Assembly: GCA_903832775.1 (NCBI GenBank)
Contig: CAILCX010000214.1
Coordinates: 1-59,653 of the forward strand
Length of the DNA stretch: 59,653 nucleotides
Direction of reading: 5' to 3'
Origin: an uncultured Methylobacter sp.
GTDB taxonomy: Bacteria; Pseudomonadota; Gammaproteobacteria; Methylococcales; Methylomonadaceae
Below the pieces are notes generated by a model that did no database searches, was not told the origin of the DNA, and was given only the letters and a program-made list of their open reading frames with translations. Numbering within the stretch: position 1 is the stretch's first letter; each line of letters opens with the position of its first letter. Shown piece by piece: positions 14,342-52,220 of this stretch. A program made the translations under genes and the position numbers.

Positions 14342-15325
14342 TTAAGCAAAACTACTTATCTGAACCTGAACCTGATCCTGAATTGAATCCTGTTCTGCTA
14401 TATGTAAAAACCAGTTATCAGAGATCCGGCCATGCAGCTCTCCCAGCTTATTTTGCAAATCATCCAAAATTGCCCTTAATTGATCCTGAGTCGTTCCCTG
14501 AGTATTAATACCCTGCACATAAGCATTCAGCTTAATCAAGTCATTCGGCAAACCGTCGTTGTTCGGTAATTCATTTATACAATCAGCAATATCGGCAATG
14601 CAACAACCCACAGAGCGGGGCAGATTTGTATTGAGTATTAAAAAATTAAGCACGTCATCACCATTGACGCTGCTTCTGACATGCTGACGATACATTAACT
14701 GGGCATTAAGTGACTTCAAGAGGTTGACCCACAGTATGGTTTCGTACTGACGCATGTCATCGCTGCGTGTATCAGCCAATAATAAAGATGCCAAATCCAA
14801 AATTCGGCTAGTCATGTCTGCACGTTCAATATTTTTACCCAAGCGAATGAATCGATAGGGATTATTGTGACTCATATAACCTGATAATAAACCGGTGAAA
14901 CGCTGACAACCTTTTAGAACATCTTTTAGCAAGGCAACACGATTACTGCGATTTTGTATAGAATCAATATTGTTTTTTACCAGTAAATACATTTCATTGA
15001 CCTGCTCCCAGGCTTCATCGGGTAATAAGTCTCTGGTGGTGCGAATATTCTCCCGGGCCGCACTTAATGACGAAAACAACGACCCCATATAAGTTGCATC
15101 GCTAATCAGAAATCGGGTTACATTGCGCTCATTAGCCGATTTATATTTTTCATGGAATTCCTGATCTGCTGCGTTAATGTGAATCAGCTGCTGCCATCCC
15201 ATTTCAACGCCAATCGGTAAATCCATCAATAAATTCATATGCACACTGACCAGTCTGGCAATATTTTCAGTGCGTTCAATATAACGTGCCAACCAATAAA
15301 GGCGTTCCGCTGATCGTGATAACAT
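14342..15325 (-). CDS. Alpha-E domain protein (DUF403)
   Basis: Alpha-helical protein of the alpha-E family, nearly always encoded with a circularly permuted ATP-grasp enzyme. The biochemical role is not established. The 327 aa protein begins with the family signature MLSRSAERLYWLARYIERTE, then NIARLVSVHMNLL. Other conserved stretches are FLISDATYMGSLFSSLSAARENIRTTRDLLPDEAWEQVN in outline, and NIERADMTSRILDLAS. Its ATG overlaps the stop of the ATP-grasp gene (TAATG), so translation is coupled. In the second arm at 23676 the same two domains are fused in one chain. Confidence 0.9.
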   Translation of the reverse strand: MLSRSAERLYWLARYIERTENIARLVSVHMNLLMDLPIGVEMGWQQLIHINAADQEFHEKYKSANERNVTRFLISDATYMGSLFSSLSAARENIRTTRDLLPDEAWEQVNEMYLLVKNNIDSIQNRSNRVALLKDVLKGCQRFTGLLSGYMSHNNPYRFIRLGKNIERADMTSRILDLASLLLADTRSDDMRQYETILWVNLLKSLNAQLMYRQHVRSSVNGDDVLNFLILNTNLPRSVGCCIADIADCINELPNNDGLPNDLIKLNAYVQGINTQGTTQDQLRAILDDLQNKLGELHGRISDNWFLHIAEQDSIQDQVQVQISSFA

Positions 15326-16776
15326 TACTCATGCTCCCTATTGATAACCCAAGTATCTTTACTGCCACCGCCTTGCGAAGAATTGACCACTAACGATCCT
15401 TTTTTCAAGGCTACGCGGGTTAATCCTCCGGCCGTCACAAAAGTATCTTCCCCCTGCAAAATAAAAGGTCGAAGATCAATATGCCGAGGTTCAAGTGTAC
15501 CTTTGCACAAAGTTGGAGCCGTTGAAATTGCCAGTGTCGGTTGTCCAATATAATTTCGTGGATTTTTCTTAACAATTTCTCGAAACTCAATTATTTCCTT
15601 GGCCGTTGCATGAGGACCCACTATCATGCCGTATCCCCCTGATTCGTTAGCCGGCTTGACCACCAGTTCGGGTAAATGTGCCAAAACGTATTCGAGATGC
15701 TCTGGATTGTCGCACAAGTAAGTCTCCACATTGGGCAGTATCGGTTCCTCATTCAAATAATAGCGAATCATCTCGGGCACATAAGCATAAACCACTTTAT
15801 CATCAGCAACACCTGCCCCCGGTGCATTCGCCAGGGATACATTGCCGGCTTTCCAAGCACGCATTAGGCCGGGAACACCCAACGTAGAGTCTTTGCGAAA
15901 GACCTCAGGATCAAGAAAATCATCGTCGATACGCCGGTAAATGACGTCAACCTTCTCTAACCCTTCAATGGTACGCATATAGACGCAATCATCGTCATTG
16001 ACCACAAGATCACTGCCTTCAACCAGTTGCGCACCCATTTGCTGGGCCAGATAAGCATGTTCAAAATAAGCCGAGTTATAAATACCGGGGGTTAAAACCA
16101 CGATTTGCGGCTTGCTAACATCATCAGGTGCAAGTGACGCCAACATCGCTTGTAATTGGCTTGGATAATCGTCGATAGGCAGAATGTCTAACCCCTGAAA
16201 GAGTTCAGGAAATACTCGTTTGGTAATAACACGGTTCTCCAACATGTAGGAGACCCCCGAAGGTACCCGTAAGTTATCTTCCAATACATACATGACACCG
16301 TCTTTATCTCGCACCAAGTCGGTGCCGCAAATGTTTGCCCAGACATTATGCCGGGGTTTCATGCCAATACATTCTTTACGAAAATTTTTGGAGCTGGTAA
16401 TAATCTCGGCGGGCATTTTGCCGGCCTTAATAAACGACTGTTCATCGTAAATATCGGCAATAAAACAGTTTAAAGCTTTCAATCGTTGCTTTAATCCTTT
16501 TTCAATTGATCGCCATTCTTTGGCGCAAATGACGCGTGGGATAATATCAAACGGCCACGCCCGATCGATATTCCCTTCATCGCTGTAAACAGTAAAAGTA
16601 ATGCCCATTTCCAAAATAGCCAGTTCAGCCGCAATTTTTCGCTTGTCAATATCACTCTTATTAAGTGAATTTAAATACTGACACAATCGATAACTGATTG
16701 GCCGCGGTTGGAACTCTGAGCACATGAGCTCATCGTAAGCGGTCTCGGTTTTGTAGTTTTCCCAGATTGATTTCAT
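15325..16776 (-). CDS. Circularly permuted ATP-grasp protein (split form)
   Basis: Member of the DUF404/DUF407 (CP_ATPgrasp) family, predicted to ligate an amine or amino acid to a carboxylate using ATP. The substrate is unknown. The 483 aa protein shows FTVYSDEGNIDRAWPFDIIPR, VLEDNLRVPSGVSYMLENR, VVLTPGIYNSAYFEHAYLAQ, VDVIYRRIDDDFLDPEVF, then VVKPANESGGYGMIVGP with likely nucleotide-binding residues, and SSQGGGSKDTWV at the end. It is the first gene of the leftward arm; the promoter must lie in 16777-17380. Iyer, Aravind and colleagues predicted from gene neighbourhoods that this family works with alpha-E, transglutaminase-like and Anbu proteins. Confidence 0.9.
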   Translation of the reverse strand: MKSIWENYKTETAYDELMCSEFQPRPISYRLCQYLNSLNKSDIDKRKIAAELAILEMGITFTVYSDEGNIDRAWPFDIIPRVICAKEWRSIEKGLKQRLKALNCFIADIYDEQSFIKAGKMPAEIITSSKNFRKECIGMKPRHNVWANICGTDLVRDKDGVMYVLEDNLRVPSGVSYMLENRVITKRVFPELFQGLDILPIDDYPSQLQAMLASLAPDDVSKPQIVVLTPGIYNSAYFEHAYLAQQMGAQLVEGSDLVVNDDDCVYMRTIEGLEKVDVIYRRIDDDFLDPEVFRKDSTLGVPGLMRAWKAGNVSLANAPGAGVADDKVVYAYVPEMIRYYLNEEPILPNVETYLCDNPEHLEYVLAHLPELVVKPANESGGYGMIVGPHATAKEIIEFREIVKKNPRNYIGQPTLAISTAPTLCKGTLEPRHIDLRPFILQGEDTFVTAGGLTRVALKKGSLVVNSSQGGGSKDTWVINREHE

Positions 16777-17380
16777 GCTGTGTCATATGGCTAGTTGGCT
16801 TTAATAAATAACTAGCACTTTTAATGCCACGTAAATAGCCGCTTGAGCTAATATGCCAATTTGAAGTTACTAACCCTGCAAAAAATAGATTTAGAGCTCT
16901 TTCAGCAACCCGAATTGTCTTTTAAATAGATGATTAATATTAATTATTACTGAAATCACTTTACTAATACCAAGCATATCATCCCTGACTGTCAAATAAA
17001 AAATTGCTGCAAAGTTAAGACATAAGCACTGATTATTAGTGTGATTACGGCCTAGCTAGAATTATGGATACAAAAGACAAGTAAAAACGACTCGCTAACA
17101 TAAACCCTATTGCTCTATTCTGGGGATAATGCGCCTCAATTTGGTGCACCATAGATCTTCAGATAGTTAAAGAGATTTCTAATTAAGATATTTTTTTTAA
17201 CGGAATATTAATAGAGTGTTATTTCAGACCTGAATAATGGAATAATCCTTATAAATAATACCGACAAAAAACATTGCAGTTTGCATCCAAAGCCAGACGC
17301 AACGGACAATAAGATTACTAAAGTTAAAGTTGATCATAAACCCCATGAATGATTTTTTTATCTCTGAATAGTCAATTGGT
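16777..17380. promoter_or_regulatory. Divergent promoter region of the two ATP-grasp arms
   Basis: This 604-base AT-rich non-coding stretch separates the leftward ATP-grasp/alpha-E pair from the rightward HPPD-like gene. It must hold both promoters. I found no RNA gene. TGCGCC-N7-GGTGCA near 17130-17150 resembles an NtrC half-site pair, but the spacing is wrong for NtrC. Confidence 0.4.
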
Positions 17381-17431
17381 ATGGTGTTTGCTTTATTCAT
17401 GTTAAAGCATAAAACTTATAGAGATCCAATC

Positions 17432-18688
17432 ATGACTATTTCCAGCCAATCTTTATCTTTCCCTGTCCAAGGTGATAAAAAAAACTCAACATTTTTCAAT
17501 GCATACCTTAACAAACTTCTTACAGAGCGTGACAGCCTTGGCTTAAGCGACATGATCCATGAAATCGACGCCTTGATGCTGGCAGTTGATCCGGGAAAAG
17601 CCATTGAATACATCGAAGAGCTATGTCTGATGTCGCCTTATCACTATTTGGTTACCCTGGAAAGCGAGTCGCACTGGACCCACGTTCTGCGCATTGACAT
17701 GAACTCACCGGATCTTCTGATCCGTGAAGTGAAAGACAACACCATAAAGGGCATCTTTCGCAGCCTTAACGAAGTATTTCCAATAGGTTTAAGCAAACCA
17801 CACAGTCGCTACATGGGCGAAATTCTGCGGGTTAACAATCTGCATGAAGTAGCCACTTTACAGCAACGCCGAGGATTCCGGTTTTTCTCTCAGGATGAGG
17901 TTCGAAAACTCGAACTGCCCGGCAATATGGCAATCATCAAACCCTCGCCCTATACCCATAACATTGTTGCCTATATGGAACGTGAACCTGATCAGCTACG
18001 GGTTTATGCTTTGGGTGTCAGCAGCATTCGCAGTGATGCGCAACAAGCTTGTGACAAGGCCAAAAATCAACAAGTGATACTGGGTATCGCCGATTTGATT
18101 TTACCGGTGGATCATTTAGCGACACGTATTTACAGCCAAAACCGCGAAGTAGCGATTTTGGAATGGCTATCGTTGTCCAGTTATTACTACTGGGGTTCGT
18201 TTGATATACACGACCAGAACTCCTCGACTAATGTCACCAAAAGCATCCATTATTCGGATGAGTTGCGTAGCCCGGCCAAAGTATTTACCGCTAATAACAC
18301 ACCTTATTTTGTCAATCATTTCACAAACTCGGATTCCCCAACCGAAAATTTTGTGCGCAATTATGGCCCCCGATTACACCATATTGCCCTCGCTGTTAAA
18401 GATGGTGATCAGCTAGGCATTGAAAATATTGAATTTGTGGTCGAAGCCATTCGCCACCAAGGCAAAAGCTTTTTACTGGATGTGGTCGGTTCCAAGGACG
18501 AAGGTCTAAAACAGATCTTTTCCAGCGCCTCTGAGCACTCCTCCTTGATTATTGAATACGTTCAACGCTTTGGCGGCTTTCAGGGCTTTTTCACCAAAGA
18601 CAATGTTGCGCAACTGACCCATGCCGCCGGCGTGGAAGAAGAATTACTGAGAATGCAGGCACTGGCACAACCTGTTTTGCAGGATTAA
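17432..18688 (+). CDS. HPPD-like VOC-fold dioxygenase
   Basis: The C-terminal half resembles 4-hydroxyphenylpyruvate dioxygenase. From the ATG at 17432 (418 aa) the three Fe(II) ligands expected of HPPD are in place: His228 in ILPVDHLATRIY, His317 in GPRLHHIALAV, and Glu375 in SLIIEYVQRFGGFQGFF, the last matching the usual FFEIIQR...GFG...NF region. The N-terminal 200 residues do not look like ordinary HPPD, and the protein is longer than the usual 350-360 aa. The upstream in-frame ATG at 17381 adds 17 residues that look non-conserved. It is the first gene of the rightward arm, so it probably serves the ATP-grasp/transglutaminase pathway rather than tyrosine breakdown. Substrate unknown. Confidence 0.75.
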   Translation: MTISSQSLSFPVQGDKKNSTFFNAYLNKLLTERDSLGLSDMIHEIDALMLAVDPGKAIEYIEELCLMSPYHYLVTLESESHWTHVLRIDMNSPDLLIREVKDNTIKGIFRSLNEVFPIGLSKPHSRYMGEILRVNNLHEVATLQQRRGFRFFSQDEVRKLELPGNMAIIKPSPYTHNIVAYMEREPDQLRVYALGVSSIRSDAQQACDKAKNQQVILGIADLILPVDHLATRIYSQNREVAILEWLSLSSYYYWGSFDIHDQNSSTNVTKSIHYSDELRSPAKVFTANNTPYFVNHFTNSDSPTENFVRNYGPRLHHIALAVKDGDQLGIENIEFVVEAIRHQGKSFLLDVVGSKDEGLKQIFSSASEHSSLIIEYVQRFGGFQGFFTKDNVAQLTHAAGVEEELLRMQALAQPVLQD

Positions 18689-18806
18689 AAATAATTCCAG
18701 TCCACAAACAAAATAATTGTCCACGAAATGCACGAAATACCTTTCATGGACAAGCTGAAACTTTAAGAATTTTTGTAACGCTTAACACTTCGTCAAGGAA
18801 AACATC

Positions 18807-21800
18807 ATGACCATTCGGGTAGCTATCCGTCACAAAACCGTTTACAACTTCGATAGATCAGTATCGTTGTCGCCGCATGTGTTCAGATTACGGCCGGCAG
18901 TCCATAGTCGCACACCAATTAGTGGCTACAGCTTGCGCATCGAACCGGAAACCCACTTTATCAACTGGCAACAAGATCCGTTTGGAAATCTTCTGGCACG
19001 GGTAGTATTTCCCGGAAAATGTACAAAACTGAGTGTTGAAGTTGAAGTAATCGCTGACTTGACAGTAATTAATCCCTTTGATTTTTTTGTTGAAGACTAT
19101 GCGGAAAATTTCCCGTTTAACTACAACGCGCCATTGCTAAAAGAATTACAGCCATATCTGGAAATCACCGAACAAGGGCCTTTACTTAAAAAATGGCTGG
19201 CTGATTTTGATCTGAGTAAATGCACTATCAATGACTTTCTGGTTGATATTAACCGAAAAGTTTTTCAGACCATTGGCTACAACATCCGTATGGAAGTAGG
19301 TATCCAGAGTTGTGAAGATTCCCTGACCAAACTGAGCGGATCGTGTCGCGATTCTGCCTGGTTACTGGTGCAAATATTGCGTCATTTAGGCTTGGCAGCT
19401 CGTTTTGTCTCAGGTTATCTGGTACAACTGACCGCAGACATCAAATCACTGGATGGACCGTCCGGTCCGGAACAGGATTTCACCGATTTGCATGCCTGGA
19501 CTGAAGTATATATACCCGGCGCAGGCTGGATTGGTCTTGATCCAACCTCCGGTTTACTGGCGGGTGAAGGTCATATTCCACTGGCTTGTACACCCGATCC
19601 GGCCAGCGCTGCGCCAGTCACCGGCGGCACAGATAAATGCGAAGTGGCGTTTGAATTTAGTAACACCGTCGTGCGTCTGCACGAAGATCCACGCGTCACC
19701 AAACCTTACACGGATGAACAATGGCTGAACATTGATGCTTTGGGTCAGCAAGTTGATCGGCAATTGCTGGTAGACGATGTGCGTTTAACTATGGGTGGAG
19801 AACCGACTTTTGTATCGGTAGACGATATTGAAGGTGCAGAATGGAATGTCGATGCGGACGGACAGCACAAACGGGAACTTGCACAAGCCTTAACCAAACG
19901 GTTACGTGATGATTTCGCAAAAGGCGCCATGCTCCATTATGGTCAAGGTAAATGGTATCCAGGCGAACCACTGCCGCGTTGGCAATATGGCATTTTCTGG
20001 CGTAAAGACGGCGCACCGATTTGGCGCGATCCGTCCCTGCTCGCTGATATTAATCAGGACTATGGTCATACCGCTGCACAAGCCGAACAGTTTATAACTC
20101 AGTTCACCTTGCGCCTGGGTTTACAGCCTCGACATATTAAAACAGCTTATGAAGATTGTTTTTATCATCTCTGGCAAGAAGGTACGTTACCGGACAATAT
20201 TGATCCGTTAAAAAGCAATTTAAAAGACTCGCTGGAACGCAAGACCTTGACCCAAAAACTGGATGCCGATTTAGGTCAACCGGCTGGCTTTACCTTACCC
20301 ATCAAATGGGACTGGATTAACCAGCACTGGCAAAGCGGTCCCTGGGATTTCCGTCGTGGCCAGATGTTCTTAATTCCCGGTAATTCGCCAATGGGCATGC
20401 GTCTGCCTTTAGGCAGCTTACCGTGGGTAGCCCCGGATAAGCGCGACACGCAGGAAGAGCAAAGCCTGTTTGCCGAGCTTCCGGAACTGGGCGACTATTA
20501 CGGTGAAGTTATGCGTCGCTACAGTCATCTTGAAAAGAAACTTAAAACCCATCCAGAGCTTGCTGATCAAGCTTTGGGCGATGATAAAACTATTGAAGTC
20601 GAGGTGCCTCATACCGCCGTGTGTGTTGAAGCCAGAGCCGGTCGAATCCATATTTTTCTGCCGCCCCTGACTTCACTAGAACATTACCTGGAACTGATTG
20701 CTGCGGTTGAAGCGACGGCGGAAAATCTTGCTGTACCTGTGGTGCTGGAAGGTTACGAGCCGCCCCGCGATTATCGTGTTGAGCGCTTAATGGTAACGCC
20801 TGATCCCGGTGTCATCGAAGTCAATATTCATCCGTCAAAAACCTGGCAAGAGTTGGTGGACAAAACCACCCTGCTTTATGAACAAGCGCATCAAGTCAGA
20901 TTAGGTACCGAAAAGTTTATGCTGGATGGACGTCATACCGGAACCGGTGGCGGCAACCATATCACCATGGGCGCTGAAATGCCGACGGACAGTCCATTGT
21001 TACGCCGCCCTGATTTATTGCGCAGTCTGGTGACTTACTGGCAGCATCACCCCGGTTTATCGTATTTGTTTTCCGGGATGTTTATCGGCCCGACCAGCCA
21101 GGCGCCGCGTGTCGATGAAGGTCGCGATGAAAAACTCTATGAACTGGAAATCGCCTTTCAGCAAATGCCTGAAGGAGAAGTACCGGCACCTTGGTTAGTG
21201 GATCGATTATTGCGCCATTTACTGACCGACATCACAGGCAACACGCATCGCTCTGAGTTCTGTATTGATAAACTGTATTCGCCGGACAGCTCAACCGGAC
21301 GCTTGGGCATTCTGGAACTACGTGCCTTTGAAATGCCACCGCATGCTCAAATGTCACTGGTACAAATTGTGTTATTGCGCTCGTTGATCGCCTGGTTCTG
21401 GCGTGAACCTTACAAACACGATTTAATCCGTTGGGGCACCGAGTTACATGACCGTTTTATGTTGCCGCATTTTGTTCAGGAAGACATGAAACAGGTCACG
21501 CAAGATCTGCAACGTGCGGGTTACGGTTTTGAATTTGAGTGGCTGGCGCCGTTTTTCGAGTTTCGTTTTCCGAGATATGGAAACACAATGATTGATGGCA
21601 TGGATCTGGAATTGCGCTTTGCCATCGAACCCTGGCATGTACTGGGCGAAGAAGTCAGCAGTACCGGAACGGCAAGATATGTCGATTCCTCGGTAGAACG
21701 TGCCCAAATTAAAATAACCGGCCTTACCGAAGGCCGTTACATAGTGACTTGTAATGGCCGACGCTTGCCGTTACGCAATACCGGTCGCAACGGCGAATAT

Positions 21801-22115
21801 GTAGCCGGTGTGCGTTACCGTGCCTGGCAGCCGCCCTCTGCCTTACACCCCACCATTGCACCGCATGTGCCCTTGGTGATTGATGTAATTGATACCTGGA
21901 ACGGCCATTCGGTAGGCGGTTGCACTTATCATGTCGCTCATCCCGGTGGACGTAGTTATGATGCTTTTCCGGTGAACAGTTATGAAGCCGAAGCTAGACG
22001 CGTCAATCGTTTTTGGGCTTTTGGCCACACGCCTGGTGTTATAATGTCGACACCCATCCATGAATTAAGCCTGGAATATCCACTTACCCTGGATTTAAGG
22101 CATCGGAACGGGTAA
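18807..22115 (+). CDS. Transglutaminase-like protein with DUF2126 domain
   Basis: The 1102 aa protein has a bacterial transglutaminase N-terminal beta domain (residues 1-85), a transglutaminase-like cysteine protease core with Cys180 (LSGSCRDSAWL), His229 (DLHAWTEVYIP) and Asp245 (WIGLDPTSGL), and a long C-terminal DUF2126 region from about residue 300 (DVRLTMGGEPTFVSVDD onward). That region contains the conserved DGRHTGTGGGNHITMGA and SVGGCTYHVAHPGGRSYD. The family is usually linked to ATP-grasp/alpha-E genes. It may cleave or form peptide or isopeptide bonds; this is inference. It lies 118 bases downstream of the HPPD-like gene in the same direction. Confidence 0.9.
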   Translation: MTIRVAIRHKTVYNFDRSVSLSPHVFRLRPAVHSRTPISGYSLRIEPETHFINWQQDPFGNLLARVVFPGKCTKLSVEVEVIADLTVINPFDFFVEDYAENFPFNYNAPLLKELQPYLEITEQGPLLKKWLADFDLSKCTINDFLVDINRKVFQTIGYNIRMEVGIQSCEDSLTKLSGSCRDSAWLLVQILRHLGLAARFVSGYLVQLTADIKSLDGPSGPEQDFTDLHAWTEVYIPGAGWIGLDPTSGLLAGEGHIPLACTPDPASAAPVTGGTDKCEVAFEFSNTVVRLHEDPRVTKPYTDEQWLNIDALGQQVDRQLLVDDVRLTMGGEPTFVSVDDIEGAEWNVDADGQHKRELAQALTKRLRDDFAKGAMLHYGQGKWYPGEPLPRWQYGIFWRKDGAPIWRDPSLLADINQDYGHTAAQAEQFITQFTLRLGLQPRHIKTAYEDCFYHLWQEGTLPDNIDPLKSNLKDSLERKTLTQKLDADLGQPAGFTLPIKWDWINQHWQSGPWDFRRGQMFLIPGNSPMGMRLPLGSLPWVAPDKRDTQEEQSLFAELPELGDYYGEVMRRYSHLEKKLKTHPELADQALGDDKTIEVEVPHTAVCVEARAGRIHIFLPPLTSLEHYLELIAAVEATAENLAVPVVLEGYEPPRDYRVERLMVTPDPGVIEVNIHPSKTWQELVDKTTLLYEQAHQVRLGTEKFMLDGRHTGTGGGNHITMGAEMPTDSPLLRRPDLLRSLVTYWQHHPGLSYLFSGMFIGPTSQAPRVDEGRDEKLYELEIAFQQMPEGEVPAPWLVDRLLRHLLTDITGNTHRSEFCIDKLYSPDSSTGRLGILELRAFEMPPHAQMSLVQIVLLRSLIAWFWREPYKHDLIRWGTELHDRFMLPHFVQEDMKQVTQDLQRAGYGFEFEWLAPFFEFRFPRYGNTMIDGMDLELRFAIEPWHVLGEEVSSTGTARYVDSSVERAQIKITGLTEGRYIVTCNGRRLPLRNTGRNGEYVAGVRYRAWQPPSALHPTIAPHVPLVIDVIDTWNGHSVGGCTYHVAHPGGRSYDAFPVNSYEAEARRVNRFWAFGHTPGVIMSTPIHELSLEYPLTLDLRHRNG

Positions 22116-22171
22116 TACCGTAATGCTTAAAAATTAACTGATCGTCCCATCCGCTTTGGAGCTTGATTAAA

Positions 22172-23476
22172 ATGACCGATAAATTAAAACAGTTACCGCC
22201 GGCCGTTTTGACGCTGGATAACAAAAATTACGAATTGCCCACGATGATAGGAATCGAGGGTGAAAAAGCAATTGATATTTCCAAACTACGCAGTCAAAGC
22301 CAATATGTAACACTGGATGAAGGTTACGGAAATACTGCCAGCTGTGAAAGTGCGATTACTTATATTGACGGTGAAAAAGGGATCTTACGTTATCGCGGTT
22401 ATCCCATCGAAGAATTGGCAGAACATTCGCGTTTTGTTGAAGTCGCCTACCTGCTACTTAATGGCGAATTGCCTAACAGCCAGCAATTAACAGCGTTTTC
22501 AACCGATCTGAATGAGGCATCAATCATTCACGAAGACATGCATCATTTTTTTAACGGCTTTCCGCGCGGCTCTCATCCGATGGGGATTCTGGCGACCATG
22601 GTAGCTTCCTTATCGACCTTCTATCCGGTTCCTGATCGACTTGACGCGGTGACTGAACAACAAATCGTTATCAAATTAATTTCACAGGTCCGCACCATAG
22701 CGGCTTTTTCTTACAAAAAATCAATCGGAGAACCGTTGATTTATCCTTCGCATAAACTGAAGTATGTGCGTAATTTTTTAAATATGATGTTTTCTTCGCC
22801 GGTACGGGATTATCAACTGGATGAAGACATCGTCCGAGCTATCGATATGTTTCTGATTTTACATGCCGATCATGAGCAAAATTGCAGTACTTCGTCGGTA
22901 AGGACTGCCGGTTCCAGTATGGCGAATGTCTATGCCGTCGCTTCATCTGGTATTTCAGCACTTTGGGGTCCGCGCCATGGCGGCGCTAACCAGCAAGTTA
23001 TTCAAATGCTTGAGCAAATACATGCTGACGGCGGTGACGGTACAGAATTTATCAATCAGGCAAAAGACAAAAACTCAACCAGTCGCTTGATGGGTTTTGG
23101 TCATCGCGTTTATAAAAACTTTGACCCGCGTGCCATGGTTTTAAAACAGCAATGTGACAAATTATTCGACAAAGCCGGTGTCAGTGATCCGTTGTTCGAT
23201 ATAGCCCGTAAACTTGAAGAAATCGCTTTGAAGGACGATTATTTCATTTCACGAAAACTGTATCCCAATGTCGACTTTTATTCCGGCTTGATTCTTCGTG
23301 CTGCGGGTATACCCACGAATATGTACACCGTATTATTTGCGATTGGCAGAATGCCAGGCTGGTTGGCACACTGGCGCGAAATGCTGCACGGTGAACAGGT
23401 AATCATCACGCGGCCACGTCAAATCTATGTGGGTGAACCTTTAAGGCACTACCAAGGTATTGATCAACGATCTTGA
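22172..23476 (+). CDS. gltA: Citrate synthase (type II)
   Basis: Condenses oxaloacetate and acetyl-CoA to citrate at the entry to the TCA cycle. The 434 aa protein has ESAITYIDGEKGILRYRGYP near the N-terminus, the catalytic histidine in LHADHEQNCSTSSVR, MGFGHRVYKNFDPRA, and the catalytic aspartate in LYPNVDFYSGLI. I start at ATG 22172, placed about 10 bases after a TGGAG ribosome site. An in-frame TTG at 22163 is too close to that site. It sits between the two halves of the rightward ATP-grasp/transglutaminase arm, an unexpected place for it. Confidence 0.95.
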   Translation: MTDKLKQLPPAVLTLDNKNYELPTMIGIEGEKAIDISKLRSQSQYVTLDEGYGNTASCESAITYIDGEKGILRYRGYPIEELAEHSRFVEVAYLLLNGELPNSQQLTAFSTDLNEASIIHEDMHHFFNGFPRGSHPMGILATMVASLSTFYPVPDRLDAVTEQQIVIKLISQVRTIAAFSYKKSIGEPLIYPSHKLKYVRNFLNMMFSSPVRDYQLDEDIVRAIDMFLILHADHEQNCSTSSVRTAGSSMANVYAVASSGISALWGPRHGGANQQVIQMLEQIHADGGDGTEFINQAKDKNSTSRLMGFGHRVYKNFDPRAMVLKQQCDKLFDKAGVSDPLFDIARKLEEIALKDDYFISRKLYPNVDFYSGLILRAAGIPTNMYTVLFAIGRMPGWLAHWREMLHGEQVIITRPRQIYVGEPLRHYQGIDQRS

Positions 23477-23519
23477 GCTTAGATTTAAATATTAAGGGGG
23501 TGTTAGTTAAAAAATATAT

Positions 23520-23600
23520 CCACAACAAATAAAGAATTTGTGGTGAATTAATATTTTTGTCTTCTGCTTTGTACATCCAGTCAATTTCAGGCTGGATGTA
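23520..23600 (+). terminator. Two hairpins downstream of citrate synthase
   Basis: First hairpin CCACAA/TTGTGG at 23520-23543, followed shortly by a T-rich stretch (AATATTTTT); second a perfect 9-bp inverted repeat TACATCCAG/CTGGATGTA at 23572-23600 with an 11-base loop. Together they probably end the citrate synthase transcript, which would give the 23676 gene its own promoter. Confidence 0.45.
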
Positions 23601-23675
23601 GCCAGTGTTAATAGCAAGCTGCTGCCTTGATTCAATGGGAAATGATGATGATTAGAGAATAACAAAGGACGCAGC

Positions 23676-26237
23676 ATGGATGAATCAGCCAATACTCTTG
23701 GTGAGCAGTTTTACGCAACAAAACTGGGCGTTTACGATGAAACCGCTTCCAAAGATGCCAAGGTACTCCCTCACTGGGAGCGCTTTATGGGTGCAGTTAC
23801 CAGCATGGGTAGCGAACAATTGGACTTGCGTCGACGTGAAGCCCAAAGGCTGTTACGAGAAAACGGCGTCACTTACAATGTTTACGGGGACACCCAAAAA
23901 TTAACACGTCCCTGGCGACTTGATCCACTCCCTTTATTAATTAGCAGTGCAGAATGGGCACTTATCGAGGTCGGTCTTAAACAACGCGCTGAATTACTTA
24001 ACCTGGTTTTAAAGGATATTTACGGCAAACAAAACTTACTGAAAAAAGGTCTGTTACCGCGAGAACTTGTGCTGGCTCACAACGGTTTCTTGCATGCCTG
24101 TGTCGGCTCACTTTCAAACCGAAAAAACCAGTTGACTGTTTATTCAGCCAATCTTGCCCGTGGCCATAATGGACGGATGTGGGTGCTCAACGACCGAAGT
24201 CAGGCACCTTCAGGCTTGGGTTATGCTATGGAAAATCGCTCCGTGATGACCAAAGTACTACCGGATATTTTTCGGGAAACCCAGGTTAACAGGCTTTCAG
24301 ATTTTTTTAAGGTCCTTCGTAAAGGATTAGCCGATAGTGCGCCACATAATAAAGAAGATCCGAGAATTGTTATTCTGACACCGGGATCTCTCAATGAAAC
24401 CTATTTTGAACATGCCTATTTAGCGACTTATCTTGGTTTTTCGCTAGTACAAGGGGATGATCTCACCGTTCGTGATGGCCGAGTCTGGTTTAAATCCCTG
24501 GATGGCCTGCAACCGGTTGATGTTATTTTGCGACGCGTAGACGATTCTTTCTGTGATCCCCTGGAGTTGCGCAGCGCTTCGCGATTAGGTGTTGCAGGCT
24601 TGCTTGAAGCCGTGCGCAGAAATAATGTTGCAATCGCCAATCCGTTGGGTAGCAGCGTCTTGGAAAACTCGGGTTTACTGGCATTTTTACCCAAACTTTC
24701 ACGCTATTTTTTAAATCAGGAGCTCTTGTTACCTTCTGTAGCCACCTGGTGGTGCGGGCAACGCCATGAGCGAGATTTTGTTTTGCAAAATTTTGATCGC
24801 CTGGTTATTAAACCGATTAATCGATCTGTGGGTGATTATTCCGTATTCGGCGGTTTATTGAGCGTTAAAGAAAAAGAACGGTTACGTGCGGCCATCCTTG
24901 CAAAACCCCATGCTTACGTTGGCCAGGAATCCGTCAGTTTTTCTACGGTACCTTCATTTATCGATCATCAAATTGAGCAGCGCTTTGCTGTCTTAAGAAG
25001 CTTTGTAGTTGCCAGCGATGAAGGCTACCACGTGATGCCTGGTGGTCTGACACGGGTTGCCCGCCAACAGGACGACTTTATTGTTTCAAATCAGTCAGGC
25101 GGTATCAGTAAAGACACCTGGGTGTTAGCGGACGCCTCAGCCAAGCAAATCAGTTTATGGGCCCAACCCGGTCGTGGCGTGGTTTTATCTGCGGTAACTG
25201 AACCGCTTACCAGTCGCTCTGCGGATAATCTATTTTGGGTTGGCAGACATTTGGAGCGCATCAAGGCAGCTACGCGTTTAATGCGGACAATCCTGATCAA
25301 ATTATCGGAAGACCAGGAACATAAAGAGACCATCGATAGCCAATGTCTTAATGAGCTGTTGCGGTCCATGACCCAGATAACAGGCACCTTTCCGGGCTTT
25401 CTTAATGGTAATGCCGCTTTATTTAAAGCCCCTCAAAGCGAATTACTGGCACTGGCCAAGAATGTGCAACGGGCCGGAACCCTGGCTGCCAGTATTCAAG
25501 CTTTCTTTCAAACCGCTTACAGTATCCGCGATTTCTGGTCACAAGATACCTGGCGCTGTGTTGATAATATTCAACGCCGCTGGCAACAACGCGTTGTTAA
25601 TAATGAGTGCGATCTGGAGCAATTGCAAAAATATCTGGACGATTTAATTACCAGTTTCGTTGCATTTATTGGCTTAACAACGGAAAGCATGACCCGGGAA
25701 GCAGGCTGGTTAATGCTGGATAGCGGTCGTCGTCTGGAACGCGCATTGACCCTAGTGGCACTGATACGTGCCACATTGGTACAACGCCATCCACTCGCCT
25801 TGCAAAATCAGTTGCTCGAAGCCGTCTTGATTTCCACTGATAGCTTAAGTATTTATCGGCGCCGCTATCGTTCCTTTATCCAGTTACCAATGGTACTTGA
25901 ACTGCTGCTAATGGATGAAACGCACCCGCGATCTCTGGCCTATCAGTTACACCAGTTATCCAATCATATTAATGCACTACCCAGAGAAGCCGGTAAAAAA
26001 CAGCTAAGCGAAGAAGAACGTCTGATTCTCCGGGCCTACACGGACTTACGTTTACTTAAAGTATCTGAACTGGTAAAAGTTGATGACGATGCCGGTGTTT
26101 ACCATGATCTGGAACGCGTCCTGTCGGGAATGACCCAGCAATTATGGCAACTCTACGAAGTTCTTGCCCAGGCCTATTTTAGCCACTCGCAAGTACCGCA
26201 AGTCATGACACCAACTCAACAGGAGGATGATCTGTGA
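23676..26237 (+). CDS. Fused circularly permuted ATP-grasp and alpha-E protein
   Basis: This 853 aa single chain equals the two leftward proteins joined together. Residues 1-480 are the ATP-grasp part: VTYNVYGDTQKLTRPWRLDP, LNDRSQAPSGLGYAMENRS, VILTPGSLNETYFEHAYLA, VDVILRRVDDSFCDPLELR, LVIKPINRSVGDYSVFGG, SNQSGGISKDTWVLAD. Residues about 510-830 are the alpha-E part, starting TSRSADNLFWVGRHLERIK. The ATP-binding stretch differs from the split copy (NRSVGDYSVFGG against NESGGYGMIVGP), so the two copies may act on different substrates. It overlaps the next gene by 4 bases (GTGA). Confidence 0.9.
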   Translation: MDESANTLGEQFYATKLGVYDETASKDAKVLPHWERFMGAVTSMGSEQLDLRRREAQRLLRENGVTYNVYGDTQKLTRPWRLDPLPLLISSAEWALIEVGLKQRAELLNLVLKDIYGKQNLLKKGLLPRELVLAHNGFLHACVGSLSNRKNQLTVYSANLARGHNGRMWVLNDRSQAPSGLGYAMENRSVMTKVLPDIFRETQVNRLSDFFKVLRKGLADSAPHNKEDPRIVILTPGSLNETYFEHAYLATYLGFSLVQGDDLTVRDGRVWFKSLDGLQPVDVILRRVDDSFCDPLELRSASRLGVAGLLEAVRRNNVAIANPLGSSVLENSGLLAFLPKLSRYFLNQELLLPSVATWWCGQRHERDFVLQNFDRLVIKPINRSVGDYSVFGGLLSVKEKERLRAAILAKPHAYVGQESVSFSTVPSFIDHQIEQRFAVLRSFVVASDEGYHVMPGGLTRVARQQDDFIVSNQSGGISKDTWVLADASAKQISLWAQPGRGVVLSAVTEPLTSRSADNLFWVGRHLERIKAATRLMRTILIKLSEDQEHKETIDSQCLNELLRSMTQITGTFPGFLNGNAALFKAPQSELLALAKNVQRAGTLAASIQAFFQTAYSIRDFWSQDTWRCVDNIQRRWQQRVVNNECDLEQLQKYLDDLITSFVAFIGLTTESMTREAGWLMLDSGRRLERALTLVALIRATLVQRHPLALQNQLLEAVLISTDSLSIYRRRYRSFIQLPMVLELLLMDETHPRSLAYQLHQLSNHINALPREAGKKQLSEEERLILRAYTDLRLLKVSELVKVDDDAGVYHDLERVLSGMTQQLWQLYEVLAQAYFSHSQVPQVMTPTQQEDDL

Positions 26238-27184
26238 AATACCGTATCACTCACAGTACTCTCTACCAATACAACCAGTTAGTCGGCTTGTGTCAAAATG
26301 AAGCCCGGTTGAAACCGCGTGATTTCTGGCGCCAACAATGTCATAGCTGCGTCTTTGATATTGGCCCGGAACCGGCTGACTTTAACGAACGCATCGATTT
26401 CTTTGGCAACCACGTTGCTTATTTCGCCATACAACAGCCCCATCAACGACTGCTTGTCACTGTCACCAGTGAAGTCACCGTATTTCCCAAAGACATGCGC
26501 AATGAGCTGGCCAATCGCTTAACTTGGGAGCAGGTGCGTGACCAGTTACAAGAAACGTCCTGTAAAACACCCTTACAAAGTCAGCACCAAAATGGGTCGG
26601 CACAGAGTCAAAGTCAAAACTCATTGCTTAACACTTATGATGAATTGCACGATGCCAAGCTCTATCTACTGGATTCGCCAATGCTAATCGCCAGCGCAGA
26701 TCTCATGGCTTATGCGCAAGCTTCCTTTCAAGCCGGCCGCCCCCTGGTTGAAGCCGTGGCTGACTTGATGCGACGTATCCATGTTGATTTCACCTATGAT
26801 CCCAGTTTTACTACGATTGCCACGCCTTTATCCGACGTACTGCATTTTCGCCGAGGCGTTTGTCAGGATTTCGCCCATTTGGCGATTGGGTGCTTGCGCT
26901 CGATGGGAATTGCCGCCCGTTATGTCAGTGGTTACGTGGAAACACTACCAGAACCCGGCAAACAACGCCTGGTTGGTGCTGATGCTTCACATGCCTGGTT
27001 TGCAGTCTATGTACCGGAGGCAGGTTGGCTGGAATTCGATCCCACCAATAATAAACAACCTTTCGATCAACATATCAGCTTGGCTTGGGGACGTGATTAT
27101 ACGGATGTTACACCACTTAAAGGCATAGCCTTTGGTGGCGGACAACATACCTTGTCAGTATCCGTGGATGTACTTAGACTGTAA
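26234..27184 (+). CDS. Transglutaminase-like cysteine peptidase family protein
   Basis: This 316 aa protein has an N-terminal transglutaminase beta domain (MKYRITHSTLYQYNQLVGLC, typical of the family) and a C-terminal transglutaminase-like core with Cys210 (FRRGVCQDFAHLAIGCLRS), His253 (GADASHAWFAVYVP) and Asp269 (LEFDPTNN). No DUF2126 extension is present, unlike the 1102 aa relative. It starts at a GTG overlapping the upstream stop, with a strong AGGAGG ribosome site inside the preceding gene, so it is translationally coupled to the fused ATP-grasp/alpha-E gene. It may make or break an amide bond in the product of that enzyme. Confidence 0.92.
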   Translation: MKYRITHSTLYQYNQLVGLCQNEARLKPRDFWRQQCHSCVFDIGPEPADFNERIDFFGNHVAYFAIQQPHQRLLVTVTSEVTVFPKDMRNELANRLTWEQVRDQLQETSCKTPLQSQHQNGSAQSQSQNSLLNTYDELHDAKLYLLDSPMLIASADLMAYAQASFQAGRPLVEAVADLMRRIHVDFTYDPSFTTIATPLSDVLHFRRGVCQDFAHLAIGCLRSMGIAARYVSGYVETLPEPGKQRLVGADASHAWFAVYVPEAGWLEFDPTNNKQPFDQHISLAWGRDYTDVTPLKGIAFGGGQHTLSVSVDVLRL

Positions 27185-27288
27185 CTGCATTATTTGACAT
27201 TATTATCTTTTGAGCAAAATGGACGTTGACCTTGCTTTACTGGATAATATTGTCAAAATTATTTTTAATCACAACAATCGAACGTACT

Positions 27289-28044
27289 ATGACCTATTGT
27301 ATTGCAGCTTCTATAGATGAAGGACTTATACTTGTTTCTGACTCAAGAACCAATGCGGGTATTGATAATGTCAGTACCTACGGCAAAATGCATGCGTTTA
27401 AAACTACACCGGATCGCAAGATTGTTTTAATGTGTGCGGGTAACCTTGCAACGACTCAAGCCGTTCTGGAACAATTGCATCGAGATAAAGTAAAAAATGC
27501 CGGGGTTAATATTAATAATGTAGAGTGCTTGTCTGAAGCTGCGGCCTATCTGGGACATGTCAGTGTTGAAAAGCAAAAACAACATATCAACTCGGAAGGA
27601 CAATCGGCATTTAATCCCGCGGCCAGTTTTATCTTGGCCGGCCAGATAGGAGATGAACCCCATGGGGCTTATATGGTGTATTCTGAAGGTAACAACATAA
27701 CCAGCTCAGCCAATACTCCCTTTTTACAAATTGGGGAAAGTAAATATGGCAAACCAATACTGGATCGTTTTCTTAAATTAGGTACCTCAATAGACGAGGC
27801 AGCGCGTTGTTGCCTAGTTTCAATGGACTCAACCATCCGAAGTAACGCTAGTGTCGGCCCACCGGTTGAAATGCTGATTTATCGGAAAGACAGCTTTTGT
27901 TTTGATGAATATTATTGTTTTGATGGCGATGATGATTATTTGCTACACCTAAGACGAAGCTGGGAAAACAAGCTCCGTGAAGCCATTAGCGCTCTGCCCT
28001 GCTTGAGCAAAGAAGAAGTCAAAATCATGCGGGTTGATTTGTAA
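27289..28044 (+). CDS. Anbu-type proteasome-like Ntn hydrolase
   Basis: Ancestral beta-subunit (Anbu, COG3484) homologue of proteasome beta subunits. From the ATG at 27289 the protein is 251 aa and begins Met-Thr-Tyr-Cys, so Met removal exposes the Thr nucleophile. An upstream in-frame start at 27226 would bury it and is therefore unlikely. Supporting residues are Asp18 (LVSDSRTNAG) and Lys33 (STYGKMHAF), matching the proteasome catalytic trio. Anbu proteins are known to form open helical or ring assemblies and to lie beside ATP-grasp, alpha-E and transglutaminase genes, as here. The natural substrate is not established. Confidence 0.93.
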   Translation: MTYCIAASIDEGLILVSDSRTNAGIDNVSTYGKMHAFKTTPDRKIVLMCAGNLATTQAVLEQLHRDKVKNAGVNINNVECLSEAAAYLGHVSVEKQKQHINSEGQSAFNPAASFILAGQIGDEPHGAYMVYSEGNNITSSANTPFLQIGESKYGKPILDRFLKLGTSIDEAARCCLVSMDSTIRSNASVGPPVEMLIYRKDSFCFDEYYCFDGDDDYLLHLRRSWENKLREAISALPCLSKEEVKIMRVDL

Positions 28045-49211: not shown

Positions 49212-50020
49212 AAGATGTTTGGGTGCTGGATTAATTCTGTAATTAGGCATGAATATCCAAGCCGAATTCGACCTTATCAATCAGTAACCCGATGACCGCA
49301 ACATGGATTCTTTCCAACTCTGAGAATCTGCTGGGTGTTGATAAGCAAGGTTGCTGATTTGTAGCAGATGTCCTTTGTGACCAAACGATCCATCTGCAAG
49401 ACCCAAAGCCACAAGTGCCGAGATGGTCAGTTCGAGGCAAGGCATTCATCGTAAACTCAATGCACCGCGCATGACGTTGACCAATAGGCAACCACACAGA
49501 TACCAGGTGCGAGACGGAAGTTGACTTTGCGTAAGCGCGAGTAAGGCTTATTGGCAGTCGATTACCTGCACGCCCAAGTTGGGTTTGGGATGGTAAAAAA
49601 GAATACGCGCGCTGCTGGCATCTGTTGGTGCGCAGAGTAGTCGGTGCGGATAACATACCTCACTATTTGTATCCAATGCTCCTCTCGACACGCCCTGGCA
49701 AGAACTGTCTCCGGTAAAGGCTCGAGATTTTTTATTGTGCATAGATTTCGGGAAGCGAAAAGCGATGCGGCATGGCCGGCTACCAAGTTCGCCGCTGGGA
49801 CTCTTGGCATAACCATATGGCATTGGTGATGCTGGGAACACTATTTCTGGTCATAGAAAAAAATCCCTGCGCCCGCAGTGGTCCATGAATGAATCTAACA
49901 AAGTAGAATTAGATGCAGTAGATTTAAATTAAATGTGACCCTATTTTAAAGTGAAGCAATATTCTCAGAGGATTTTGAATTCTATGATTTTATAAAAACT
50001 CATTCGGTTGAAAAAAAAGT
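49212..50020. other. Decayed region before the tRNA cluster
   Basis: No intact gene. It contains the transposase remnant at about 49460-49888. The rest (49212-49459 and 49889-50020) shows nothing I recognise. AT content rises towards the tRNA promoter. Confidence 0.4.
49460..49888 (+). pseudogene. IS701/IS4-superfamily transposase remnant
   Basis: Pieces of one transposase can be read in different plus-strand frames. First comes KEYARCWHLLVRRVVG with NIPHYLYPML, then in another frame RFFIVHRFREAKSDA, then in a third frame from 49772 MAGYQVRRWDSWHNHMALVM followed by LGTLFLV. The order matches the end of IS701-like transposases (WHLLVRRE..., SFREAKSE, YQVRxWxxWHHHMALV). At least two frameshifts and stops separate the parts. 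Terminal inverted repeats were not identified. Confidence 0.65.
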
Positions 50021-50049
50021 TTGACTAAATAAAACTTAATCGCTATTAT
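50021..50049 (+). promoter_or_regulatory. Promoter of the tRNA-Pro-Arg-His operon
   Basis: TTGACT, a 17-base spacer, then TATTAT, about 57 bases before the first tRNA. It is the only good sigma-70 promoter in front of the cluster. Confidence 0.7.
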
Positions 50050-50105
50050 AGACAGCTCTTCAGGGATGTTTTAAAGTCATATTATTTTAAAGTATTAGAA
50101 GATAT

Positions 50106-50182
50106 CGGGGTATAGCGCAGTCTGGTAGCGCGCCTGCTTTGGGAGCAGGATGTCGGGAGTTCGAATCTCTCTACCCCGACCA
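50106..50182 (+). tRNA. tRNA-Pro(TGG)
   Basis: Acceptor stem CGGGGTA pairs with TACCCCG, discriminator A, encoded CCA. Anticodon stem CCTGC/GCAGG with loop TTTGGGA, giving anticodon TGG. 77 bases. First of three tRNAs in tandem. Confidence 0.96.
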
Positions 50183-50186
50183 ATTC

Positions 50187-50263
50187 GCGCTTGTAGCTCA
50201 ACCGGATAGAGCACCAGCCTTCTAAGCTGGGGGTCGCAGGTTCGAGTCCTGCCAAGCGCACCA
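50187..50263 (+). tRNA. tRNA-Arg(TCT)
   Basis: Acceptor stem GCGCTTG pairs with CAAGCGC, discriminator A, encoded CCA. Anticodon stem CCAGC/GCTGG with loop CTTCTAA, anticodon TCT. Four bases separate it from tRNA-Pro. Confidence 0.96.
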
Positions 50264-50283
50264 TCAAGAAAGCCAAATATTAT

Positions 50284-50360
50284 GGTGATCGTAGCTCAGT
50301 TGGTAGAGTCCCGGATTGTGATTCCGGTTGTCGCGGGTTCGAGCCCCGTCGTTCACCCCA
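50284..50360 (+). tRNA. tRNA-His(GTG), ICE attachment target
   Basis: Starts with the extra G at position -1, which pairs with C73 as usual in tRNA-His. Anticodon stem CCGGA/TCCGG with loop TTGTGAT, anticodon GTG. CCA is encoded. The acceptor stem shows one T-T mismatch (positions 5 and 68). An integrase gene lies 69 bases downstream, so the 3' part of this tRNA is the probable attB/attL core of the conjugative element. Confidence 0.94.
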
Positions 50361-50406
50361 ATAAATTCAATTACTTAGTCAAGTTTAATCGTGTTAATTT
50401 TATATA

Positions 50407-50440
50407 CTGGTGGGAAATCTGGTGGGAAATCATTCACCAG
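50407..50440. repeat. Tandem and inverted repeats at the ICE left end
   Basis: The 12-base unit TGGTGGGAAATC occurs twice in direct succession (50408-50419, 50420-50431). CTGGTG at 50407-50412 is inverted as CACCAG at 50435-50440. The repeats lie between tRNA-His and the integrase, extending into its last codons, and are likely integrase arm-binding or regulatory sites. Confidence 0.55.
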
Positions 50441-51548
50441 CCGGTCTCACTAAACTCGGTTTTACATCATAAATATTAAGCATGCTGGCATTTCGATGGC
50501 CGCTAGCTTCTTGCTTATTTCCGCTCGTATCAGTCACTCCTTTTCTTTTCAAATCATGAAAAGTGAAGTGATTAAATTCTATCCCTAATTCTTTAGCTTT
50601 TTTTATTGCTTGTTGATCGATTCGCGCTTTTGCGGTTTTAAATGACGAAACAACCAATCTATCTCCAGTTCTTTCACTAATAAAGATCAGGCGTTCTTCA
50701 GGTTTAATTTTTTGGGGTATGCGTTTTTCTGCTTGAATTTTATTACGCATTTCCTTTGCTGATTTCCAGGCTTTCTCAAGACGTGGACTCCATTCTGTAA
50801 TATTGTCTTTTGAGCCTTTTCTTCTTCGTATATAGAGTCCTTCAGGAAGTTCATCGGTATCTGACAAATCAATCACCTCAGAAAGACGCATTCGACACAG
50901 ATATGCAATTTCCATTGCATATGGCATATACCAATAATTAGATTCGAAGGCTACCTGTAGCAAAAAATTATAATCTTTATCATCAGCATAATGTTTGCGT
51001 GCTGCTACCGTAAGTTTTTTGATCCCCTTTGCTGGATTATTCTTTACCTTTTCGTATTCGTATGCCCATGAAAATACGCGCTTGATATAAGATAATTCCT
51101 TATTTGCGCGACTCCTGGATTCATCTGCCCTAAAGTCTCGATAGTTACGCACCGTAGCAACACTCCATTTGGCCAGGGCTTGATCCCCGAACAATCCTGT
51201 TGCTGTCTTGCTATTGATGATTTTTGTGTGACAACCAAGATAATCATCTTGTGTTAATCGACTCAAATCCCGCCATGCAAGAGACTTTTGAAAATCAAGT
51301 GACAAACTTTTAAAAGTAGTCTCAGATTGCACTGCCTGTGCTTCATAAGCTAACCATATTTCATGCATGGTTGCCAATGGTCCGGCAATGCGTCTTGAAC
51401 GCCACTTTTCAGACGTAGCATCGTAGTAATCAAACATCCATTTGCCAGCACCCGACTTGTTAAACCAAGTGTGACAGGGAAGTTTGGATGGGTCTTTTAT
51501 GTGTGCAGGAAAGTTATTACTAGATCGCGTTCTGCCTCGTTTTTTCAT
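50430..51548 (-). CDS. Tyrosine-type integrase of the tRNA-His element
   Basis: This 372 aa phage-type integrase should insert the element into tRNA-His. The catalytic domain has the box I Arg in YLCRMRLSEVIDL, the FHDLKRKGVTD stretch in place of the usual HxLR (seen in this integrase subgroup), and SGHRNASMLNIYDV with the nucleophilic Tyr. The N-terminal part is AT-rich and binds arm sites in relatives. It overlaps the upstream DUF4224 gene by 4 bases (ATGA), so the two proteins are made together. Its stop lies 69 bases from the tRNA 3' end. Confidence 0.92.
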   Translation of the reverse strand: MKKRGRTRSSNNFPAHIKDPSKLPCHTWFNKSGAGKWMFDYYDATSEKWRSRRIAGPLATMHEIWLAYEAQAVQSETTFKSLSLDFQKSLAWRDLSRLTQDDYLGCHTKIINSKTATGLFGDQALAKWSVATVRNYRDFRADESRSRANKELSYIKRVFSWAYEYEKVKNNPAKGIKKLTVAARKHYADDKDYNFLLQVAFESNYWYMPYAMEIAYLCRMRLSEVIDLSDTDELPEGLYIRRRKGSKDNITEWSPRLEKAWKSAKEMRNKIQAEKRIPQKIKPEERLIFISERTGDRLVVSSFKTAKARIDQQAIKKAKELGIEFNHFTFHDLKRKGVTDTSGNKQEASGHRNASMLNIYDVKPSLVRPAGE

Positions 51549-51751: not shown

Positions 51752-51806
51752 TTTAATAAATTATTAAATTTTGCAGACACTGCGCATATCATGCTGCAGT
51801 TCATTA

Positions 51807-52055: not shown

Positions 52056-52164
52056 TAATTGCTTTTCCTCCCATATTTCTTATGAAGGAATTTAGTTTGG
52101 CGGACACTCCGGATTCCACTCAACGCACTTGGCTTGGGCAATAGCGCGCCTGAGTAGAGAGACA

Positions 52165-52187
52165 AAGTGCGGCAGGCTGCCGCACTT
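52165..52187 (-). terminator. Hairpin at the end of the tra operon
   Basis: AAGTGCGGC, loop AGGCT, then GCCGCACTT; on the minus strand TTTGTC follows. It lies 34 bases past the stop of the last gene in the leftward tra operon. Confidence 0.5.
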
Positions 52188-52220
52188 CCAAATATCCATT
52201 GACCCTATCCAGCCAAAACA

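Follow-up and report, generated by a model that had tools for sequence, protein, structure and literature searches.

We analysed a window of 59,653 nucleotides, contig CAILCX010000214.1 (C214 in our numbering) of a 3.86-Mb assembly of an uncultured Methylobacter sp. (GCA_903832775.1), which carries at 14342–28044 two versions of a circularly permuted ATP-grasp/alpha-E pair. The leftward genes encode a free-standing alpha-E protein and a split ATP-grasp (AGs); the rightward genes encode a protein that we call P3, a transglutaminase-like domain fused to DUF2126 (TGD), a citrate synthase, a fused ATP-grasp/alpha-E protein (AGf), a transglutaminase-like protein (TG2) and the Ntn-hydrolase Anbu. 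We propose that the locus is a single module, active under nitrogen starvation, for making and cutting an amide bond, comprising an active ATP-grasp, a dead paralogue of it, a ligase resembling glutamine synthetase (GS), Cys hydrolases and Anbu; we put the probability of this reading at roughly 0.57. That the ATP-grasp/alpha-E locus is doubled is confirmed, since Pfam scores far exceed the curated cut-offs and the set recurs in relatives, which argues against chance. Its central features are as follows.

14342–15325, minus strand: free-standing alpha-E; PF04168, 276.8 bits; the gene overlaps the end of the ATP-grasp gene
15325–16776, minus strand: split circularly permuted ATP-grasp AGs, predicted active ligase; PF14403, 560 bits; PDB 3n6x, E 5.4e-160
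18807–22115, plus strand: TGD, transglutaminase domain fused to DUF2126, putative amidoligase; PF08379/PF01841/PF09899
23676–26237, plus strand: fused circularly permuted ATP-grasp/alpha-E AGf, predicted pseudo-ligase; PF14403, 507 bits; PF04168, 219 bits
26234–27184, plus strand: transglutaminase-like TG2; the gene overlaps AGf and belongs to the AGf/TGD set
27289–28044, plus strand: Anbu Ntn-hydrolase, Thr2 nucleophile; matches to PDB 5loy/5lox

An earlier note, made from the sequence alone, had described a split leftward and a fused rightward ATP-grasp/alpha-E copy, as the Pfam matches confirm, and had placed beside them two different transglutaminase-like proteins and Anbu, as is borne out by Pfam and by the match to solved Anbu structures. 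The P3 and citrate synthase genes are two further genes inside the interval that it did not include.

Loss of predicted ligands in the fused ATP-grasp

Thirteen active-site positions were numbered on the AGs of the window and compared in a set drawn from family loci (a sample of 61 genomes), phylum loci (249 genomes) and 80 named TGD records, with duplicates removed. Four entries were dropped from a raw table of 113 split and 132 fused sequences, leaving 111 and 130: L111_1_2715 and L162_12703 left the fused set, being one gene of genome G267 with an active motif, a long open frame and a place outside the fused clade, and L183_7766 and L239_3759 left the split set, being fused-type genes cut by contig ends. 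The residues D153, E166, N168, K374, D434 and R436 are all kept in 110/111 split copies and in 0/130 fused copies; the sole incomplete split copy, L251, has masked letters. The E166/N168 pair is missing from every fused copy, three of which keep E166 and none N168. In the family sample, the window included, E166, N168, R170, G380, G381, Y382, G383 and D434 are kept in 20/20 split copies, and E166, N168, R170 and D434 are replaced in 34/34 fused copies. Positions 380, 382 and 383 of the Gly-rich loop show no majority residue among 85 fused sequences. Within the window itself, the split copy has its PF14403 match and complete predicted metal/ATP ligands, and the fused copy has lost the predicted metal ligands and the Gly-rich loop.

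The tree gives the same division. One bipartition holds 132 fused-type sequences and no split sequence (support 0.891), this group of 132 excluding the G267 pair and including the two contig-end-cut genes, and the division recurs in a 57-sequence subset (28 fused) with an ultrafast bootstrap (UFBoot) value of 100. Protein length, active-site state and tree position are concordant. AGf thus appears, from its residues and its placement, to be a catalytically dead paralogue that forms a sister clade of the split copies and is kept in many bacteria. Comparison with E. coli Gss suggests that the lost residues may be read as metal and ATP ligands; for Gss R316, D318, E330, N332, K498 and K533 the residue letters were checked, and the roles are those that we take them to have. 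A literature search, with Iyer 2009 outside its coverage, returned no earlier mention of an inactive ATP-grasp copy. The gene of G267 (L162:12703-16494) encodes an active split-type ATP-grasp inside a 1263-aa open frame and may be fused to another domain.

Decay of AGf is concentrated in the ATP-grasp site, because the alpha-E residues are mostly kept and the hydrolase residues are intact (counts for alpha-E, TG1, TG2 and Anbu made after length filtering). Free-standing alpha-E proteins (n=102) have E17 and R18 in 102/102, E167 in 102/102 and R168 in 101/102; the alpha-E part of fused proteins (n=123) has R18 in 123, E17 in 112, E167 in 121 and R168 in 109, and R91, N93, R95, R174 and W199 are further positions at which the fused form departs from the free-standing one. 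The Cys-His-Asp triad is invariant in 36 TGD sequences (C180/H229/D245), in 114/114 TG2 sequences (C210/H253/D269) and in 23/23 sequences of TG1, a third, Anbu-type transglutaminase. In Anbu, T2, D18 and K33 (Met counted, corresponding to Thr1, Asp17 and Lys32/33) are kept in 42/42.

Co-occurrence and gene order

Co-occurrence of the two arms in relatives, which the earlier note had set beforehand as the test of its reading, is strong. PF14403 is found in 41 of the 61 family genomes; the fused gene is intact in 34, each of which has a split gene as well, six have the split gene only, and G017 has its ATP-grasp gene in broken pieces. In the phylum sample, AGf was assigned by eye from the matches listed, so that 71 of 249 genomes with a fused copy is a lower bound; two or more PF14403 matches are present in 70 of these 71, all but G209, which is 74% complete. 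A further five genomes (G110, G136, G145, G213 and G272) have two matches with no fused copy among those listed and may hold one, and the phylum tally of 132 leaves out four genomes whose sole match is weak (E about 1e-4 to 1e-7). TGD is present in 71/249 phylum genomes, 62 of which also have a listed fused copy (Fisher p ~1e-38, kinship uncorrected), and no TGD genome in this sample lacks a circularly permuted ATP-grasp.

The named loci have flanks of up to 10 kb, many cut by contig ends, and among the 80 both ATP-grasps are seen in 30, AGf only in 22, AGs only in 15 and neither in 13. Before correction the two middle counts stood at 20 and 17, two contig-end-cut fused genes having counted as AGs; L250 (283 aa, at a contig end) is ambiguous, and L219 is a 159-aa AGf fragment. 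TGD is followed by AGf on the same strand in 43/80, and TG2 adjoins AGf in 48/50 named loci with AGf. The head-to-tail order AGs-alpha-E-TGD-AGf occurs in 12/80 loci from several phyla, including by their titles Marinobacterium, Marinomonas, Halioglobus, Aestuariicella, Desulfuromonas, a planctomycete, a verrucomicrobium and a poribacterium. Because this order is found in such distant taxa, the doubling is either ancient and shared or has been exchanged repeatedly, and is not a local duplication. Among named records, the closest TGD relatives come from Methylococcaceae/Methylococcales, including Methylovulum and Methylobacter (88-78% identity). A TG-DUF2126 locus is also carried by L218, titled as a metagenome-assembled genome of Helicobacter pylori PMSS1; the title looks like that of a misnamed metagenome bin.

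DUF2126 and Anbu

The predicted model of DUF2126 has a glutamine-synthetase fold, as judged from Foldseek matches given a second look with VIA-align; the matches include GmaS and 1-naphthylamine GS, and many E/H/R residues are invariant in DUF2126. Since DUF2126 is modelled with a GS fold, a second ligase, if there is any, is more likely to be DUF2126 than the fused ATP-grasp.

Anbu gave no Pfam match above the cut-off, only a weak PF00227 match, and is identified by its match to the solved Anbu structures (5loy, E 3.7e-63). Its most likely start is the ATG at 27289 (MTYC...) and not the TTG at 27226. TG1 adjoins Anbu in many relatives; it is absent from this locus, and the genome has a match to it of 66% identity on a different contig (C17:2790-3572). 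Several family relatives have two Anbu types together, one about 65-90% and the other about 41% identical to that of the window, and in some relatives the second type lies near another split ATP-grasp (for example on contig C10 of G014).

Promoter-like sites and nitrogen regulation

Regions within 250 nt upstream of genes were scanned for TGGCAC-N5-TTGC, which we take to be the sigma-54 consensus, with GG and GC fixed and at least 8/10 matches. Expected counts come from a base-pair-exchanging shuffle and are approximate, and the sequences are related, so that the counts are not independent. The window has two such sites.

16815–16829, minus strand: sigma-54-like promoter TGGCAT-N5-GTGC, 38-53 nt before AGs; 8/10 consensus positions
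17377–17391, plus strand: sigma-54-like promoter TGGTAT-N5-TTGC, about 62-76 nt before the likely P3 start; 8/10

Sites of this kind precede AGs in 61/109 distinct upstream regions against 4.9 expected (family 28/36, phylum 13/32, named 20/41), with 3/109 on the opposite strand; they precede 98/1382 of the other open reading frames of at least 250 aa, spurious ones included. They are also in excess before TGD (31/134, 4.8 expected) and P3 (8/24, 0.7 expected), the TGD sites being 13 sense versus 0 antisense of 33 in the family set and 13 versus 6 of 77 in the named set. Counts are at chance before AGf (5/131, 5.9 expected), TG2 (6/131, 6.5 expected), Anbu (2/45, 1.7 expected) and TG1 (1/24, 0.9 expected). 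A scan for NtrC-like sites (at least 10/12 matches within 400 nt) found 18/108 before AGs (1.9 expected), 8/134 before TGD (2.3), 4/24 before P3 (0.4) and 5/45 before Anbu (0.6), as well as 0/131 before AGf (2.3) and 2/131 before TG2 (2.4). The genome has rpoN.

Nitrogen control has been reported for homologous clusters in relatives. The Burkholderia cenocepacia cluster of ATP-grasp, alpha-E, transglutaminase and large transglutaminase genes is listed among common sigma-54/NtrC targets, and its expression is 6.0- to 9.4-fold lower when ntrC is mutated (PMC5491218). In Pseudomonas putida, PP_2686-2688 rise 11- to 15-fold on nitrogen limitation in the wild type and 17- to 37-fold in a relA/spoT mutant; the table gives NtrB/NtrC as putative regulator (PMC7801951). 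COG3484 is reported, in a sigma-54 regulon analysis, as enriched in alpha-, beta- and gammaproteobacteria (PMC12316311), these domains are described as associated with urea metabolism in marine metagenomes (PMC3597751), and expression is described as unchanged under various conditions, with Anbu nevertheless up in nitrogen-limited P. putida (PMC5666114).

Proposed mechanism and alternatives

We suggest that the locus would act as one system rather than as two parallel ones. Nitrogen scarcity would switch it on through NtrC and sigma-54, as the promoter-like sites and the nitrogen control published for relatives suggest. The split ATP-grasp, with alpha-E, would join an ATP-activated carboxylate to an amine, as expected from its family; phosphate release from ATP has been reported for a Yersinia homologue (PMC6376114). 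From co-occurrence and synteny, the fused protein may be a dead copy that partners, scaffolds or regulates both the active enzyme and TG-DUF2126. DUF2126 would be a second amidoligase, given its predicted GS fold, and the transglutaminase-fold proteins with a Cys-His-Asp triad would, together with Anbu, cut or transfer the amide. A pathway that builds a peptide or modification and removes it again, as in the earlier note, is in keeping with these enzyme families, and a system for peptide synthesis in which Anbu would be the peptidase had been proposed before (Iyer 2009, as cited in PMC5666114 and PMC6376114).

Both ATP-grasps could instead work as ligases, each adding a different amino acid in turn, as the earlier note allowed from the difference in their ATP-binding stretches. 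The difference is real, and it is a loss of predicted ligands across the sampled fused clade, which looks unlike a change of specificity. Both copies match PF14403 strongly, and K374 is kept in 87/132 and R436 in 131/132 fused-labelled sequences (two of the 132 having the active motif); yet none has the E166/N168 pair, the six key residues are complete in none of the 130 and the loop has drifted at 380, 382 and 383. With the predicted metal and ATP ligands lost across the fused clade, a two-step ligation is unsupported, and we consider it very improbable. The fused protein might also have been repurposed for a new metal-independent or non-ligase catalysis: 21 positions, R182, E239, D289 and R436 among them, hold one and the same residue in the two clades at 97% conservation or more, and the fused copy still matches PDB 3n6x (E 4.5e-89). 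The only clade-specific fixed switch is S176 to G in the fused copies, and a single switch with a drifting pocket is what a structural role, more than a catalytic one, would lead one to expect, which makes repurposing quite improbable, if less so than sequential ligation.

A protein tagging or turnover system, in which ligases attach a tag and Anbu and Cys hydrolases degrade the protein or remove the tag to supply protein nitrogen, has been proposed in the literature (PMC5666114, PMC6376114). It would suit the kinship of Anbu with the proteasome, seen in the structure match and the weak PF00227 match, and the induction of the P. putida genes on nitrogen limitation (PMC7801951). No unfoldase family was found among the eight proteins scanned with Pfam, and Anbu from three sources is reported as inactive on standard proteasome substrates (PMC6376114); we regard this explanation as unlikely. 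An anti-phage defence system was also considered and rejected, PADLOC matching 0/7 proteins.

Several observations weigh against the single nitrogen-starvation module that we prefer. The residue mapping onto E. coli Gss comes from a non-significant profile alignment and assumed residue roles. Nine of the 71 phylum genomes with a listed fused copy are without DUF2126, and 9 of the 71 with DUF2126 are without a listed fused copy. The strand contrast of the TGD sites is gone in the phylum set (5 sense versus 5 antisense of 24), no AGs site of at least 8/10 was found in the listed Bacteroidota, Desulfuromonadales and planctomycete loci, and the sites in the window score 8/10 each, a score that taken alone lies within chance in a window where matches with at most two mismatches number 71 against 69.3 in shuffles. 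In P. putida, PP_2686-2688 still rise when rpoN is mutated (14- to 20-fold), and urea transporter genes in the same table behave alike, so that dependence on sigma-54 does not hold generally; for Anbu (PP_2685) the rise is only 1.1-fold in the wild type, 4.8-fold in the relA/spoT mutant and 1.5-fold in the rpoN mutant (PMC7801951). For the four Anbu-operon proteins of Yersinia, the published account gives no specific complex and no Anbu peptidase activity (PMC6376114).

As to physiology, by analogy with gamma-glutamylation pathways we tentatively suggest that an amine or peptide nitrogen source might be activated and salvaged by way of an amide intermediate, a role that we think possible but less than even in likelihood. 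More doubtful still is a wider version, a widespread nitrogen-starvation pathway in which a small amine or peptide would be tagged by ATP-grasp and GS-like ligases, optionally oxidised by P3 and cut by transglutaminase-fold hydrolases and Anbu, the ATP-grasp being obligately paired with its dead alpha-E-fused paralogue. If true, Anbu, an orphan proteasome relative, would have a metabolic rather than a proteolytic role. The apparently dead paralogue, the predicted GS fold of DUF2126 and the recurrent sigma-54-like promoters narrow the question of what Anbu and its partners do to two: which compound shifts under nitrogen limitation when AGs or DUF2126 is missing, and whether the active ATP-grasp is controlled by its dead paralogue.

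P3, citrate synthase and neighbouring genes

Two further genes lie within the rightward set; open reading frames were listed from 100 aa across the window and from 25 aa in 16777-17380.

17453–18688, plus strand: P3, possible VOC/HPPD-like iron oxygenase; 411 aa from the likely start; no Pfam match
22163–23476, plus strand: citrate synthase paralogue within the operon; likely start 22172; identified by Pfam

The P3 frame opens at 17381 (435 aa), with 17453 as the likely start. The protein (about 411-435 aa) has no Pfam match other than a sub-threshold one (E 0.15), and its structure model is unusable (pLDDT 45). H245, H333, H334 and E392 are invariant in eight sequences, and tblastn gave weak matches (E 0.02-0.4), six of seven annotated as VOC; the conserved His/His/Glu and these matches suggest an HPPD-like oxygenase. 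In a PDB profile search the sole match, to spermine synthase, was at chance level. P3 is present in 18/61 family genomes, every one of which belongs to the 38 that have TGD (p ~3e-5, kinship ignored), in 6/249 phylum genomes, five of them with TGD, and in 8/80 named TGD loci, titled Methylococcaceae (two), Methylomonas, Methylophilus, Gallionella, zetaproteobacterium, Ectothiorhodospiraceae and Methylococcales.

Citrate synthase was rejected as a core component on account of its restricted occurrence and a second genomic copy at C39:25756-26856. It adjoins AGf in 15/33 family relatives' loci with AGf (counted by eye) and in 4/80 named loci, all titled Methylococcaceae or Methylococcales. Translations inspected by eye include integrase-like, relaxase-like, TraG/TraD-like and ParA-like frames at 49243-59653 and an integrase-like frame at 449-2047, at the left end, which suggest mobile elements near the ends of the window.

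Comparison with known systems

The E. coli enzymes Gss, YgiC and YjfC, glutathionylspermidine or peptide-spermidine ligases, share the permuted ATP-grasp logic, and the motif order D...E-x-N...K...K can be read both there and in the window enzyme; the activity of YgiC/YjfC is taken from record annotation and citations. Gss and the window ATP-grasp profiles gave no significant sequence match; the path along which the fused profile aligns is consistent with this order of motifs. Mycobacterial parallels are presumably found in Rv2566-2569c and Rv2409c-2411c, on which a literature search gave nothing useful.

All four protein types of the Anbu operon (ATP-grasp, alpha-E, transglutaminase and Anbu, as in Yersinia bercovieri and in P. 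putida PP_2685-2688, where the identity of PP_2687/2688 is our assumption) are present in this genome, and the catalytic Thr, Asp and Lys of Anbu are kept in the window copy. The gene order of that operon is broken here: the ATP-grasp and alpha-E genes face away from Anbu, the TG1-like gene lies on contig C17, and a second set of TG-DUF2126, fused pseudo-ATP-grasp and TG2 is interposed. Compared with the gamma-glutamylation enzymes GmaS and 1-naphthylamine GS, DUF2126 is a distant branch (8-12% identity) and, unlike them, is fused to a transglutaminase-like domain. The B. cenocepacia H111 cluster I35_5080-83 (DUF404/407, DUF403, transglutaminase-like and large transglutaminase-like) shares the ATP-grasp, alpha-E and large transglutaminase with the window, which adds the fused copy, P3, citrate synthase and Anbu, no fused copy being named in the description of that cluster (PMC5491218).

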